From Pseudomonadota bacterium (lineage in GTDB: Bacteria > Pseudomonadota > Gammaproteobacteria > Acidiferrobacterales > UBA6901), in contig JAJXUF010000023.1 in the NCBI GenBank assembly GCA_021783175.1, positions 1-42,686 on the forward strand: a stretch of DNA of 42,686 bases, given 5' to 3'. The position numbers and the translations under genes are program-made. How positions within the stretch are numbered: the first letter of the stretch is position 1; each line of letters begins with the position of its first letter. The notes below the pieces were generated by a model. That model did no database searches and had not been told where the DNA came from. It saw only the letters and a list, made by a program, of their open reading frames with translations. This document shows positions 9,380-25,726 of this stretch, one piece after another.

Positions 9380-9408
9380 GGAATAAAAGCAAAAAACCAG
9401 GCGTCTAA
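9380..9408 (+). promoter_or_regulatory. ECF-type promoter before the sigma factor gene
   Basis: GGAATA (9380-9385) and CGTCTAA (9402-9408) are separated by 16 bases, a spacing and sequence of the kind recognised by many ECF sigma factors (GGAA in the -35, CGTC in the -10). It lies about 30 bases ahead of the ECF sigma start, as expected if the factor drives its own operon. A second GGAATG at 9375 gives a less good spacing. Autoregulation is inference. Confidence 0.65.
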
Positions 9409-9436
9409 TCTACATAAGAGGAACCAGGGGTAAACA

Positions 9437-10003
9437 ATGGATTTTCTGAATCTGTTCGGTCATTCCCGTGATACCAAGAACACGCTAGAACAAAGTCGCG
9501 CGAGACTTTTTCGCATGGCATACGCATGGTGCCATAACCGCGCCCTGGCGGACGACTTGGTACAGGAAACCCTGGCAAAGGCAATGCAAAAATCTGATCA
9601 ATTGCGTGACCCAAAAGCACGTGATGCCTGGCTTTTCAGCATCCTGACCAATTGTTACCGCGACCATTTCCGGCGCCAGCGGGCGATGGAAGACATTGAC
9701 GACATCGAGCTCCTGCACGATTCCACTCCTGAATCCGAAAACAGCCAGATTCAGATTGTCCAGAAGGTGCGGGCCGCGGTTGCCCGGCTACCGGAAGGAC
9801 AACGTCAGGTGATAAGCCTGGTGGACCTGGAAGGCTTTTCCTACGTTGAAGTTTCAGTCATTTTGGATATTCCCATTGGAACGGTAATGAGCCGCCTGTG
9901 TCGTGCCCGCGGAGCGATGCTGCGCCTGTTGGCTGGGGATTTCGGTGGCAGCGACGCCCAAGCCGCCCCGCGGCGGGACCCCAATTTGCGTAGGGTCAAA
10001 TGA
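9437..10003 (+). CDS. ECF-type RNA polymerase sigma factor
   Basis: The 188-residue product has only sigma regions 2 and 4. Region 2 is LFRMAYAWCHNRALADDLVQETL through AWLFSILTNCYRDHFRRQR (about 25-85). Region 4 is LPEGQRQVISLVDLEGFSYVEVS through IPIGTVMSRLCRARGAML, the helix-turn-helix that reads the -35. Start ATG 9437 follows AGGGG. The gene opens an operon with the anti-sigma-like DsrE protein and a free DsrE-like protein. It is probably held inactive by the next gene's product. The last 25 residues are basic and disordered in character. The inducing signal is unknown; the context suggests sulfur or redox stress. Confidence 0.93.
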   Translation: MDFLNLFGHSRDTKNTLEQSRARLFRMAYAWCHNRALADDLVQETLAKAMQKSDQLRDPKARDAWLFSILTNCYRDHFRRQRAMEDIDDIELLHDSTPESENSQIQIVQKVRAAVARLPEGQRQVISLVDLEGFSYVEVSVILDIPIGTVMSRLCRARGAMLRLLAGDFGGSDAQAAPRRDPNLRRVK

Positions 10004-10053
10004 AAAATAACTATAAAAATTCTTGGACGAATAGAGGCTTAGATGAAAAATAA
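10000..10053 (+). other. 17-codon mini-ORF bridging sigma and anti-sigma genes
   Basis: An ATG overlaps the sigma stop (ATGA at 10000-10003). The frame reads MKNNYKNSWTNRGLDEK and ends at 10053, 11 bases inside the anti-sigma gene. The 11-base string ATGAAAAATAA occurs at 10000-10010 and again at 10043-10053, so the two reading frames begin with the same MKNN or MKNx start. It may be a remnant of a duplicated start or a coupling ORF. Whether it is translated cannot be seen. Confidence 0.35.
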
Positions 10054-10789
10054 TGAAGACAAATTCTCGGACGAGTATTTGAACGCGTTCGTGGATGACC
10101 AGTTGGCCCTTGACGAAAGGGGCCGCTTGTTCGACGAAATTAGCAGGGACGAGACCGTGAACCGCAAGGTGTGCGAGTTACGCAAATTGCGCGATCTGGT
10201 ACAGATGGCCTACAAGGATCTTCCGGACCTGTCCCGGCATGAGAATAATCCGGCAAGACGCTCGCGCAAATGGCAGCGACGAATGATTGCCTGCCTGGCG
10301 CTGTCTTTAACCACCCTGACGATAGTTGGCGGTCTGCGCGGCGACAGTGGTCGCCAGATGCTTCTGGCGTCTGGCGCAACGCCGCATGTCGCCCTGAATA
10401 GCGCAACCAAGGTGGCCAGCAGCCAAGAAATCAAGGTTCTGTTTCATTTAAACAGCGGCGATCAGGCCAACATGAAGGAAGTTCTGGACGAAACGGAAAG
10501 CCTGCTCAATCTCTATAAGCGCACGCACCAACAAGCGCGTGTCGAGGTCATCGCCAACGGCGAAGGGCTGAACCTGCTGTTGGCTGGGCGTTCCCCTTAC
10601 CCTAGTCGCGTCGATAAGATGATGAAAGAGTACAAGAACCTGCAGTTCGCCGCATGTCTGAACACGCTCGATCGGTTCAAAGACCAAGGCATCAGGACCA
10701 AGCTCCTGCCGGGCGCGATCGTCATCGACTCGGGTGTTGCACAGATTGTGCGCCTGCAGCAGGAGGGCTGGATCTACATTCAGGTGTGA
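10043..10789 (+). CDS. Membrane anti-sigma-like protein with outer DsrE-like domain
   Basis: The product is 248 residues. Residues 1-80 resemble the cytoplasmic part of transmembrane anti-sigma factors (SDEYLNAFVDDQLALDE, then a helical stretch with RRSRKWQRR), but the zinc motif HxxxCxxC is absent; only Cys44 is there. Residues 81-97 form one membrane helix. Residues 128-248 form a DsrE/DsrF-like domain (KVLFHLNSGDQANMKEVLDE, ANGEGLNLLL, a lone Cys205 in FAACLNTLD, IDSGVAQIVRLQQEG). With the basic stretch before the helix inside, the DsrE part should face the periplasm. I infer it senses something through that domain and releases the sigma factor. The sigma gene is 39 bases upstream and the partner DsrE gene follows. 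Confidence 0.75.
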   Translation: MKNNEDKFSDEYLNAFVDDQLALDERGRLFDEISRDETVNRKVCELRKLRDLVQMAYKDLPDLSRHENNPARRSRKWQRRMIACLALSLTTLTIVGGLRGDSGRQMLLASGATPHVALNSATKVASSQEIKVLFHLNSGDQANMKEVLDETESLLNLYKRTHQQARVEVIANGEGLNLLLAGRSPYPSRVDKMMKEYKNLQFAACLNTLDRFKDQGIRTKLLPGAIVIDSGVAQIVRLQQEGWIYIQV

Positions 10790-10833
10790 AAACCTGCGGC
10801 GGGAAGCCGCTCGACAGACCGGAGCGCGCCAGC

Positions 10834-10890
10834 ATGAACAAAGATCCTATGTCCGAACCTTGGGCAACGGCCCCGCGGGCGGCGACGTGA
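10834..10890 (+). other. 18-codon mini-ORF coupled to the DsrE gene start
   Basis: ATG 10834 has GGAG nine bases upstream (10821-10824) and encodes MNKDPMSEPWATAPRAAT. Its TGA (10888-10890) overlaps the GTG start of the following DsrE-like gene as GTGA. It could be a leader peptide that feeds ribosomes to a poorly initiated GTG. Alternatively it could be the true N-terminus of that protein, separated by a one-base error or a programmed shift. Confidence 0.4.
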
Positions 10891-11270
10891 GCCAAGAAGC
10901 TCCATACGGCCGACAAAAAGTTGTTTATCACATTAATAGCAGTGATGCCTCGCTGCTCAGGAATGCGTTAGGCAATATTCACAATCACATTAAGGCGGTT
11001 GGCAGGGAAAATATCGAAATTAGAGTAGTCATACACGGAGACGGGGTCGACTTGCTGCGAATCTTGAATCTAGATGGCAGCTTGCAGAGCAGGATAACCG
11101 ACCTGAAGAACCAAAGTGTTGGGTTCGGTGTCTGCAGCAATACCCTTCGCGCCAAGCAGATCGACTACAAAGTAGAGCTTTTCGACGTGCACGAAACGGA
11201 TATCGTGCCCAGCGGGGTGGCGGAACTTGCAAAACTCCAACAGGAAGGCTATGCCTACATAAAGCCCTGA
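10887..11270 (+). CDS. DsrE-family-like small cytoplasmic protein
   Basis: From GTG 10887 the product is 127 residues, about the size of one DsrE/DsrF domain. It has no signal peptide. It shows KVVYHINSSDASLLRNALGNI, VVIHGDGVDLL, a central Cys83 in GVCSNTL, and PSGVAELAKLQQEGYAYIKP at the end. The same Cys-xNTL and GVA-x-LQQEG patterns occur in the outer domain of the upstream protein and in the secreted protein at 25301. DsrE-fold proteins carry sulfur on such a cysteine, so sulfur transfer is possible but unproven. GTG lacks a clear ribosome site; it is coupled to the mini-ORF at 10834. A strong terminator follows. Confidence 0.8.
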   Translation: MSQEAPYGRQKVVYHINSSDASLLRNALGNIHNHIKAVGRENIEIRVVIHGDGVDLLRILNLDGSLQSRITDLKNQSVGFGVCSNTLRAKQIDYKVELFDVHETDIVPSGVAELAKLQQEGYAYIKP

Positions 11271-11296
11271 TCAACCGGTTTCTTCTCCTCTCTTCC

Positions 11297-11321
11297 AGCC
11301 CGCGCAAGCGGGCTTTTTTTT
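11297..11321 (+). terminator. Intrinsic terminator of the sigma/DsrE operon
   Basis: AGCCCGC (11297-11303) and GCGGGCT (11308-11314) close a GCAA tetraloop and run into eight T (11314-11321). Confidence 0.95.
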
Positions 11322-23214: not shown

Positions 23215-24123
23215 ATGGCCTGCAGTCATACGAAAAACTGCGAACTGTTTCCGCAATTCGCATTGAACCCAGCGCTGAAAGTGTGGCAGATCCATTATTG
23301 CGAGGGCGAACACGCCCGCTGTGCCCGCTATCAGCTTTCCCTTCAAGGTAAAACAATTCCCCTCAATCTGCTGCCCAACGGCAAACGCGTGGAAACACCG
23401 CGTTCGTCAAGCGCCTACGGTGCGGCAGCGCTGTTCAACGCGATAATGAAAGACCGCGTGCACATGGTCGAGTCACTGCTGCGCACCGGCGTCAACATCG
23501 ATTCGCGTAATGCCGAAGGCATGACACCGCTAATGGCAGCAGCAAGTCATGGCAACCCCGCTATAATTCGACAGCTGCTTTCCAAGGGCGCCGAAATCGG
23601 TGCGGCCAACCTGCATGGCGCAAACGCCTACGATATCGCGATGCATCATGGACACGCCGAGGCCGCGGAACTCATTGCGGCCGCCGGCGGCCGATCAAGC
23701 GGCGCTGTGTTGCCGACAAGCGAAACGCCAGAGGAATCACTGGCCATATCGGAATCAACTAACGCTGCAGAACCGGCGGAATCGGCGCGTGTTCTGCCCC
23801 TGCCGACCGAATGGTCGCGAAGTGCGAATTCCGGACACGCATACTGCCTGCGCATCACCACCAGCGACGCTATGGCGCTGGCACAGTCAATTACGCGCGC
23901 CTGCAGCGAATGCTTCGTCGCCATCGAAGCCATGGTCCAAAAACCAACAGCAAGTGGCCAGCGGTTGGCATCGGTCATTGTTCTCACCGGACAGATTGCC
24001 GACGAGGAAACTGTCTTGCGCGTAATGCGGCTGCTTGAAGGCATGGAAATTGTTTCAGGACCCATCACTTGCATGCGCCTCGAAGCTCTGGCGGTATCAG
24101 ACCTGGCAAGGAGCGTGTCATGA
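23215..24123 (+). CDS. Cys4-ankyrin-ACT fusion protein
   Basis: The product is 302 residues with three parts. Residues 1-58 contain four cysteines (3, 9, 29, 36) in a C-x5-C...YC-x6-C pattern, with WQIHYCEGEHARCARYQL, which may hold a metal or Fe-S centre. Residues 66-157 are ankyrin repeats (GAAALFNAIMKDRVHMVESLLRTG, EGMTPLMAAASHGNPAIIRQ). A 45-residue linker follows, rich in Glu, Ser and Ala. Residues 207-290 resemble the ACT domain at the end of homoserine dehydrogenase (YCLRITTSDAMALAQ, VAIEAMVQKP, VIVLTGQ, IVSGPITCMRLE), which usually binds an amino acid. The stop overlaps the first YeeE/YedE gene (ATGA). The fusion suggests a regulator of sulfur or amino-acid metabolism; that is inference. 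Confidence 0.75.
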   Translation: MACSHTKNCELFPQFALNPALKVWQIHYCEGEHARCARYQLSLQGKTIPLNLLPNGKRVETPRSSSAYGAAALFNAIMKDRVHMVESLLRTGVNIDSRNAEGMTPLMAAASHGNPAIIRQLLSKGAEIGAANLHGANAYDIAMHHGHAEAAELIAAAGGRSSGAVLPTSETPEESLAISESTNAAEPAESARVLPLPTEWSRSANSGHAYCLRITTSDAMALAQSITRACSECFVAIEAMVQKPTASGQRLASVIVLTGQIADEETVLRVMRLLEGMEIVSGPITCMRLEALAVSDLARSVS

Positions 24124-24746
24124 ACAGCTATTGGCCCTGGTGGCTCGGATCGCTGGCGCTCGCCAGCATTACAGTTGGTTTCTGGCTGCTGTTGCGGCGC
24201 CCGCTTGGCGTATCCGGCAGCTGGGCCCGAATCGTCGGCTGGCGCGAAGCGCGCTCCGTTGAACTCGCAGAGGCGCCGTTTCGGGAAAACGAAGCGGCGA
24301 TGGGTGATGCGCTCCTGGCCGCGACGCTGGCCGAATTTGGTGAACAGGCAACTGTGATGACGCTTTCCGGCGGAAGCGGACGGTCGGCAGCTCAACCCGT
24401 TTTCCGGCAGGGCGCGGCACGCGCCCCCTGGACCGCACACCTGACGTTTCTCGCGGCCATGGCCCTAGGCGGGTTCCTTGCGTCAGTGTTCAGCGGCACC
24501 TTTGCCCTGCGCTTTGATCTTGGTTCCGCTTATACACAGTTGTTCGGCAGCGGTTGGCATTCGTGGGTGATTCTCATGCTTGGTGGCGCCATGGTTGGTT
24601 TCGGCACGCAGATGGCGGGTGGTTGCAGCTCCGGTCACGGACTGAGCGGCTGTTCGCGCCTGGTGCCCGCGAGTTTGATGGCCACAGCGATTTTCTTCGG
24701 CACCGCGGTCGCGGTGTCGTTCCTGGTGCAAATGGTGGCAATATGA
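24120..24746 (+). CDS. YeeE/YedE family transporter, half protein A
   Basis: The product is 208 residues. A membrane helix at 10-28 is followed by a soluble region of 70 residues that is unlike the short half proteins of other bacteria. Then come helices at about 107-130, 148-165 and 185-205. The family motif GGAMVGFGTQMAGGCSSGHGLSGCS holds Cys169 and Cys178. In the related full-length thiosulfate transporter, such Gly-Cys motifs move sulfur compounds through the membrane. The start overlaps the ankyrin gene stop and the end overlaps half B (ATGA both). A role in thiosulfate or sulfide-derived sulfur transport is inferred. Confidence 0.85.
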   Translation: MNSYWPWWLGSLALASITVGFWLLLRRPLGVSGSWARIVGWREARSVELAEAPFRENEAAMGDALLAATLAEFGEQATVMTLSGGSGRSAAQPVFRQGAARAPWTAHLTFLAAMALGGFLASVFSGTFALRFDLGSAYTQLFGSGWHSWVILMLGGAMVGFGTQMAGGCSSGHGLSGCSRLVPASLMATAIFFGTAVAVSFLVQMVAI

Positions 24747-25168
24747 AAAGACTCTCTTCCTTCGAGCAACATGCGACCTATGCGGCACTCGGTCTGGGTA
24801 TGGGCTTCGCCCTGAGTCGGATTGGATTCAGCAATTACGGCGAGCTTCACAGGATGTTCGTCTTTTCCGATTTTCGCCTGCTTTTTACGTTTGCCGGCGC
24901 GGTGCTTCTAACCATGATCGGCTTCCAGGTTCTTGCACGCGGACAGCGGATACCACGAAAACCCTTTCACCCCGGTACTATTCCCGGCAGCATTCTTTTT
25001 GGTGCCGGCTGGGCCCTGACTGGGTCCTGCCCGGGTATCGCCATTGTGCAGATTGGTGAAGGTCAACTGGCTGCCGCGTTTACCCTCCTCGGAATTCTGT
25101 TCGGCGTGTGGGCTCACCGCCAGGCGCACGCCCATATTTTCAGCTGGGACACTGGCGCCTGCGAATAA
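24743..25168 (+). CDS. YeeE/YedE family transporter, half protein B
   Basis: The product is 141 residues from ATG 24743, which overlaps the stop of half A. It has four membrane segments (ATYAALGLGMGFALSRIGF, LFTFAGAVLLTMIGFQVL, SILFGAGWALTGSCPGIA, AFTLLGILFGVWA). The family motif GAGWALTGSCPGIAIVQIG carries Cys96. Half A and half B together equal one YeeE/YedE transporter, as in PmpA/PmpB-type pairs. A final Cys140 is at the C-terminus. Confidence 0.87.
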   Translation: MKRLSSFEQHATYAALGLGMGFALSRIGFSNYGELHRMFVFSDFRLLFTFAGAVLLTMIGFQVLARGQRIPRKPFHPGTIPGSILFGAGWALTGSCPGIAIVQIGEGQLAAAFTLLGILFGVWAHRQAHAHIFSWDTGACE

Positions 25169-25269
25169 TCGCGCCGCCGTGGACTGACGCCGCGATCTGC
25201 CCCCTTGCAAGCCCCTGCAGGCCGCTGCAGAGGGCTTGTGCAAACGCGCGCAATAGTTCAACCTTCCTT

Positions 25270-25275
25270 TATACT
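25270..25275 (+). promoter_or_regulatory. Candidate -10 box before the secreted DsrE-like gene
   Basis: TATACT lies 25 bases before ATG 25301, with GGAG (25291-25294) between. No good -35 is seen at the proper spacing, so it may need an activator. Confidence 0.3.
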
Positions 25276-25300
25276 GCGGGCTAAGCTACCGGAGATCACT

Positions 25301-25726
25301 ATGCACTTATCTCGCGTCAGCACGCGATTACTTTTCACTGGCGTGCTGCTCTTTGCCCTGGGCTTGCAATGTGCGGCGGGCGCAGACACCAAACCCGGCG
25401 TTGTCATTCAGGTCAGCGATGACAGCTTGGCCGCCTGGAACTTCACTTTGCGCAACGTCAAGAACATGAAGAGCCAGCTTGGCAAGGTCAAAATCGAAGT
25501 CGTCGCCTTTGGGCCCGGTATATACATGCTCAGGCGCAATTCCGGGGTCGGCGACCAGCTGGATGCGGAAATGATGCAGGGGGTAACTTTCGTTGCCTGC
25601 GAAGACAGCATGCATGCCCGCAAACTCACCCGCAAAGACATGTATCCGGACCTTGTTTTTGTTCCTTCCGGCGTGGCGGAGATCGTGGCCAAACAGCTGC
25701 AGAACTGGTCCTACCTGAAACCCTAG
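25301..25726 (+). CDS. Secreted DsrE-like protein
   Basis: The 141-residue product has a signal peptide (MHLSRVSTRLLFTGVLLFAL, cleavage probably near AAGAD, residues 25-29). The mature part is one DsrE-like domain: VVIQVSDDSLAAWNFTLRNV, KIEVVAFGPGIYML, a lone Cys100 in FVACEDSMHA, and VPSGVAEIVAKQLQNWSYLKP at the end. The cysteine position and the GVAE segment match the two DsrE-like proteins at 10043 and 10887. It is likely periplasmic. The start is supported by GGAGATCACT. It follows the YeeE/YedE halves by 132 bases. Sulfur carriage on Cys100 is possible but not shown. Confidence 0.8.
   Translation: MHLSRVSTRLLFTGVLLFALGLQCAAGADTKPGVVIQVSDDSLAAWNFTLRNVKNMKSQLGKVKIEVVAFGPGIYMLRRNSGVGDQLDAEMMQGVTFVACEDSMHARKLTRKDMYPDLVFVPSGVAEIVAKQLQNWSYLKP

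Follow-up and report, generated by a model that had tools for sequence, protein, structure and literature searches.

The stretch of DNA considered here (42,686 nucleotides, contig JAJXUF010000023.1 of a Pseudomonadota bacterium placed in the Acidiferrobacterales; hereafter the window) carries at 9380 to 11321, all on the + strand, genes for an extracytoplasmic function (ECF) sigma factor, a putative membrane anti-sigma factor and a small DsrE-family protein. These are probably, with odds of about two in three, the parts of a switch that signals the presence of extracytoplasmic sulfur and drives its own operon together with sulfur-oxidation genes. Since the sulfur-oxidation (sox) genes of relatives share the operon's promoter, the cell may use the operon to sense sulfur in its surroundings. 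The three-gene operon is present as described in an earlier sequence-only reading, whose positions for the genes, for the GGAATA-N16-CGTCTAA element ahead of them and for the GC stem and T-run behind them were all borne out:

9380 to 9408, + strand: predicted promoter of the sigma factor's own operon, GGAATA-N16-CGTCTAA (motif count; relatives' sigma genes).
9437 to 10003, + strand: ECF sigma factor, 188 residues (Pfam Sigma70_r2 and Sigma70_r4_2; TIGR02937).
10043 to 10789, + strand: putative membrane anti-sigma factor, 248 residues, with an RseA-like domain at about residues 10–58, a probable membrane helix within 73–96 and an outer DsrE domain at 130–248 (RseA_N profile match, DsrE fold, invariant Cys205).
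10887 to 11270, + strand: DsrE-family protein, 127 residues from a GTG start (a TTG start at 10860 is possible), with Cys83 (PF02635, E 9.5e-12).
11297 to 11321, + strand: terminator-like hairpin whose GC stem has 7 pairs, with a run of seven T behind it (terminator scan; the scan of the region gave 3 sites against 2.8 in shuffles, a number not above chance).

A protein search for relatives of the anti-sigma factor gave 271 proteins, of which 120 were listed, and a genome scan gave 39 loci (L001 to L039). Eighteen of these loci come from named groups such as Sulfuricaulis, Acidiferrobacterales, Muproteobacteria, Thioalkalivibrio, Thiodiazotropha, Thiotrichaceae and Chromatiales, many of them known for sulfur oxidation; 21 are assigned only to Proteobacteria, Pseudomonadota or Gammaproteobacteria. 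L039 held only a fragment and was dropped, leaving 41 full-length anti-sigma factors from 38 loci (two with two each) and the window. Gene order is kept, with the sigma gene directly upstream of the anti-sigma gene in 38 of the 41 and a DsrE gene directly downstream in 33. A second tandem pair of sigma and DsrE-anti-sigma genes, with its own GGAATA/CGTC promoter, is present in L010 (7770–9143) and in L012 (7694–9066), and both second pairs adjoin a divergent DsrE gene also bearing the motif.

Within the window the pattern GGAATN{16,18}CGTCTA occurs once against 0.04 expected, and the looser GGAAN{17,19}CGTC six times against 4.87 expected. Among the relatives and the window together, GGAATA-N15/16-CGTC stands at 37 of 42 sigma open reading frames (ORFs); the GGAATA and CGTC letters in these promoters are fixed by the search pattern, and a looser pattern found the same sites. 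Of the five ORFs that lack it, four encode distant sigma factors (two in L033, one each in L026 and L034) and the fifth, in L029, lies where its contig ends. L034 and L036 instead carry the motif before the anti-sigma gene, and in L025, L026 and L038 the site overlaps the start of the longest ORF, which was the one used. Both strands of L001 to L039 (639 kb) gave 44 motif matches against 2 of the reversed pattern, namely 36 sigma promoters, two sites at anti-sigma genes (L034, L036), two at the divergent DsrE genes (L010, L012) and four others. These counts suggest that the sigma factor regulates itself through the promoter at 9380.

The motif was also found at sox loci. SoxY (PF13501) was found in 26 of the 30 genomes with the system, and 30 soxY loci of such genomes (88 kb; the best 30 of 42 matches) held 16 strict motifs on the sox strand, none antisense and none of the reversed pattern; the 16 sites fall in 14 loci of 14 genomes. 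The strict motif was absent from 25 RseA loci (80 kb) of genomes with the system. It was also absent, sense and antisense, from 30 soxY loci (99 kb; the best loci from 55 genomes) of genomes without a detected anti-sigma factor, where the reversed pattern occurred twice; ‘without’ means that there was no match at E 0.001, and for many of these genomes the scoring covered only 27 of the candidates from a first look. Comparison of 14 of 30 loci with none of 30 gave a Fisher value of 1.7e-5 for two sets that differ in kinship. A second set with the system came from the family of G030, 96 genomes of which 41 match the family profile; 20 were taken as having the anti-sigma factor (19 by near full-length matches, G055 by a match from position 49). 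Here the strict motif was present in 4 of 29 soxY loci from 18 of the 20 genomes (4 sense, 0 antisense). With the loosest pattern, GGAAY-N16/17-CGT, the sense and antisense counts were 21 and 6 in the first set with the system, 8 and 5 in the second and 3 and 10 in the set without. Only these SoxY-anchored counts are independent of hand-picked regions.

Genome-wide scans of the 30 genomes extend the predicted regulon. GGAATAN{15,16}CGTCTA gave 23 sites in 14 genomes against 10 of the reversed pattern, and GGAATAWN{14,15}CGTC gave 217 against 81 (all summed); the genes after the 23 sites include sigma genes, soxY, soxX and a YeeE/YedE gene. Sixty regions were picked by hand among the listed genome-wide sites. 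The regions examined contain 128 distinct sites. At 68 of them a gene that resembles any of 13 reference proteins starts no more than 330 bases away: sigma 32, soxB 10, DsrE 8, YeeE/YedE 7, soxX 5, soxY 4 and YeiH-type 2. Counted by genome, 17 of the 30 carry a site before soxB, soxX or soxY, and 21 carry one before a sox, yeeE, dsrE or yeiH gene. One genome with a site at soxX is G024 (L026, Gammaproteobacteria bacterium Milos-ODIII6). This tally is a description and not a test because the references were picked after the sites had been seen and many regions were picked by hand. One DsrE entry, from G011, is probably a chance match, as its site (L011, 2212) lies within the coding sequence of the anti-sigma factor, upstream of the third gene; an SQR-like (sulfide:quinone oxidoreductase) reading of the gene after a site in G015 had no Pfam match and was not counted. 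SoxB, SoxX and SoxY were named by NCBIfam above cut-off, while the transporter matches TsuA models below cut-off; the Pfam names for the targets are Sulf_transp, DsrE and Cons_hypoth698, the last of which is the YeiH-type family. In G001, G002, G003 and G008, the four genomes closest to the window, a site stands before soxB and before YeeE/YedE in three genomes each, before an exported DsrE gene in two, before a porin gene in three and before a guaB-like gene in all four. The sequence-only reading had proposed a sulfur-sensing sigma switch. That proposal is partly supported: it gains backing from a predicted regulon because sigma genes and sox genes share the promoter motif, and in relatives further sites lie ahead of yeeE/yedE, dsrE and yeiH genes.

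The protein of 9437–10003 is an ECF sigma factor, being short and having Sigma70 regions 2 and 4 above the curated Pfam cut-offs (Sigma70_r2, E 5.8e-13; Sigma70_r4_2, E 1.9e-15), with 72.7 bits against TIGR02937 where the cut-off is 42.9. The case for the anti-sigma factor was made by comparing profiles. A profile of the inner 78 residues of 25 family members aligned at residues 10–53 with a profile of 20 RseA_N domains, taken from searched genomes, with an hhalign probability of 95.3 (E 2.2e-8). One hundred column-shuffled profiles reached at most 14 and the reversed profile 0.3, which bears out the earlier claim of an anti-sigma-like inner half. A Pfam scan of the inner domain of the window protein gave no match. 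Among the 25 N-termini, including that of the window, zf-HC2 matched 12 (best E 2.1e-4) and RseA_N matched 4 (best 0.018), and some unrelated families matched one to five members at E 0.001–0.02. Pfam alone is weak for this domain because unrelated families match the N-termini too. A sequence search of the PDB with the inner-domain profile gave no anti-sigma factor and weak matches only (best E 0.18). The zinc-binding motif Hx3Cx2C of class I, as defined in a passage of the class I anti-sigma survey (PMC7406223), was not seen when the alignment was inspected by eye; a single Cys44 is conserved. Given the profile kinship to RseA_N, the inner domain can be assigned to the class I RseA-like anti-sigma domains, and the membrane protein probably restrains the adjacent sigma factor.

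The outer part of the window protein falls below the Pfam cut-off for DsrE (16.4 bits against 22.7). The family profile finds the DsrE-fold protein 1l1s with E 3.5e-15. An AlphaFold2 (AF2) model has a mean predicted local distance difference test score of 80.3, with 93–98 in the outer domain by blocks of ten, and a Foldseek search with this model matched 1l1s with a target template modelling (TM) score of 0.90 (E 2.7e-9) and DsrEFH chains at ranks 7 and 10. The DsrE-like outer half claimed earlier is confirmed by this fold match together with the profile match. Cys205 is aligned with a cysteine of 1l1s and of 2pd2 and is cysteine in all 41 full-length members; the modelled fold and this residue point to a DsrE/DsrF (PF02635) domain. 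The cysteine had been called the lone conserved one, and its invariance stands; it is not alone, as Cys44, predicted to be cytoplasmic, is conserved in 39 of 41.

The start of the third gene at the GTG (10887) matches the start in L003; a listed protein 99% identical has 136 residues and would fit the TTG start at 10860. Of the 33 third proteins, 30 start with a hydrophobic segment that resembles an export signal; a simple measure of hydropathy identified 29 of them, and that of L027 was recognised by eye when read from a later start. The proteins of the window, L002 and L003 lack such a segment. The description of a soluble DsrE partner thus fits these three and not the family at large; it is a trait of the close kin of the window because 30 of the 33 look exported. 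In two close relatives of the window organism the third gene is a remnant (L001, 11044–11250) or was not found (L008).

The preferred mechanism runs as follows. The genes, the folds, their conservation and the motif common to sigma and sox genes were established by computation. We infer binding of the sigma factor, the topology, the signal, the Cys205 chemistry and the release step. The anti-sigma factor would hold the sigma factor at the membrane through its RseA-like domain, and the DsrE domain, if periplasmic, would meet reduced sulfur, most likely as sulfane sulfur that reaches Cys205 either without an intermediary or through exported DsrE proteins. Release of the sigma factor would follow, by a conformational change or by proteolysis, and the free sigma factor would transcribe its own operon, soxX, soxY, soxB and genes for YeeE/YedE transporters, exported DsrE proteins and a YeiH-type transporter. 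Persulfide chemistry at Cys205 is proposed. A sulfane-sulfur signal is favoured because it fits the invariant Cys205, the usually exported adjacent DsrE protein and the predicted regulon, which do not thereby prove the chemistry. In a tentative and somewhat doubtful extension, sulfur transfer would itself be the signal: exported DsrE proteins made under control of the sigma factor would pass sulfane sulfur to Cys205, freeing the sigma factor and switching on Sox. If true, this positive loop would, in Gammaproteobacteria that oxidise sulfur, tie transcription to a sulfur relay in the periplasm.

An AF2 model of the fused sigma and anti-sigma factors had a predicted TM-score of 0.42, which is uninformative either way on binding. 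Several observations weigh against a sulfur-reporting switch. Four of the 30 genomes with the system gave no SoxY match, including G025, Thioalkalivibrio denitrificans, which does carry the operon (L027). In the G030 family SoxY was found in 19 of 20 genomes with the system and in 44 of 55 without a match, so that the presence of sox is independent of the system, and the contrast at its soxY loci is weak (4 of 29 with the system against none of 30 without; Fisher 0.052). Sixty of the 128 distinct sites have no recognised gene, and 9 of the 30 genomes have no sulfur target in the regions examined. Genes for a carbonic anhydrase, a tetratricopeptide repeat (TPR) protein, a metallo-beta-lactamase-fold protein and unknown proteins follow sites in the genome-wide scan, and the porin and guaB-like genes are among those preceded by the motif. 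The regulon of the window organism is itself predicted from relatives whose anti-sigma factors are 59–61% identical, and the strict motif occurs nowhere else in the window, including ahead of the YeeE and DsrE genes at 24.1–25.7 kb.

The sigma factor may control sox while the DsrE domain serves as a docking platform, the signal being the state of a partner DsrE protein and not sulfur on Cys205. DsrE-family proteins form hetero-oligomers (DsrEFH, TusBCD), and the partner could be the third-gene product, adjacent in 33 of 41, or a regulated exported DsrE protein, such genes being among the predicted targets. However, Cys205 is invariant whereas the corresponding cysteine of the third protein is cysteine in 30 and serine in 3 of 33, and the third gene is a remnant or was not found in the two loci mentioned above; the docking reading is unlikely. 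A switch for thiol or redox stress, in which oxidants would oxidise Cys205 or Cys44 and sox would belong to a wider regulon, has in its favour the conservation of Cys44 and, among the genes that follow sites, a thioredoxin-like gene of the DUF255 family in G018 and one in G001 that is DsbG-like but scores below the NCBIfam cut-off. Against this, all 36 recognised non-sigma targets are sulfur-related, though only sulfur references and operon genes were offered and the other scans show non-sulfur genes, and we regard such a switch as improbable. It is very improbable that a different ECF sigma factor, whose promoter is similar by coincidence, acts at the sox sites, since the 30 soxY loci from genomes in which no anti-sigma factor was detected lack the motif, even though many ECF promoters have a −35 element of the GGAA type and L010 and L012 hold a second pair with the same promoter.

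Returning to the sulfur-reporting switch, one of its closest known counterparts is RpoE/RseA, an ECF sigma factor with a class I anti-sigma factor in the membrane, with which it shares adjacent sigma and anti-sigma genes and an inner domain related to RseA_N. It differs in that the outer half is a DsrE domain, in its promoter and predicted regulon, and in that the AF2 model shows, from residue 58 to the membrane helix, nothing that is clearly a fourth anti-sigma helix. The DsrE/DsrF proteins (1l1s, MTH1491; 2pd2, ST0148; DsrEFH, 2hy5) share the fold, and 1l1s and 2pd2 the position of the conserved cysteine, but have no anti-sigma part, whereas here the domain forms the outer half of a putative membrane anti-sigma factor.

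Control of sox genes by an ECF sigma factor has been described in Arcobacter butzleri, where, according to passages of that study, sigma2 (AB1044) activates the sox operon, as judged by arrays, reverse transcription PCR and an activity assay, while sigma7 represses sox in opposition to sigma2 in a network that includes nap and hydrogenase genes (PMC3445524). By this published description sigma2 does to sox genes what is predicted for the present sigma factor, and ‘DsrE’ does not occur in the main text of the study. In Sinorhizobium meliloti the autoregulated ECF26 sigma factors RpoE1 and RpoE4, which have a co-transcribed anti-sigma factor and likewise serve sulfur oxidation, are activated through sulfite, assumed by the authors to arise inside the cell; they differ in that their target is sulfite oxidation (sorT), and the passages concerned contain no DsrE sensor (PMC3511301). 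Sulfur oxidation in Hyphomicrobium denitrificans is, in the sections consulted, controlled by the repressors SoxR and sHdrR with the YeeE-like SoxT (PMC11582611, PMC12423496, PMC10451225). Sulfur control of sox genes and the involvement of YeeE-like transporters (PMC11582611) are points of likeness, but the regulators there are ArsR-type repressors, where the present system would use a sigma factor and a membrane anti-sigma factor (PMC12423496, PMC10451225).

That an ECF sigma factor controls sox was thus known before (PMC3445524); what is new is the putative DsrE sensor and the conserved link through the promoter. The sequence-only reading knew of no anti-sigma factor with a DsrE sensor, and none is described in titles or abstracts among the matches listed from a literature search whose coverage leaves out most subscription journals; nor does ‘DsrE’ appear in the main text, as far as consulted, of the class I survey (PMC7406223). 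How regulators sense external sulfur is described as poorly understood in one of the H. denitrificans papers, in the part consulted (PMC11582611). A membrane anti-sigma factor with a sulfur-handling outer domain and a promoter shared with sox would be a concrete, testable candidate for such a sensor, and one that predicts further regulon members.

Among the genes that follow the motif in the four nearest genomes, the guaB-like gene, recognised by eye, lies 85–174 bases after it (L115, L127, L140 and L146), and the porin-like gene follows it in three sister genomes (L122, L137 and L145) with an NCBIfam PorB match below cut-off. The loci L117, L126, L138 and L147, from four sister genomes, share a conserved site with conserved flanks that no clear ORF follows, and this site possibly drives a small RNA or a short gene. 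L114, L130 and L142 form a second conserved group of this kind in sister genomes. No sulfur cluster was seen beside the operon in the window, where the neighbours look like housekeeping genes by eye (e.g. purM, purN, dut and coaBC). Further along, the window contains a YeeE/YedE-type gene in the stretch 24114–25726 (PF04143 on 24114–24743), followed at 25301–25726 by a gene for a DsrE protein with a signal-like N-terminus (PF02635, E 1e-7).

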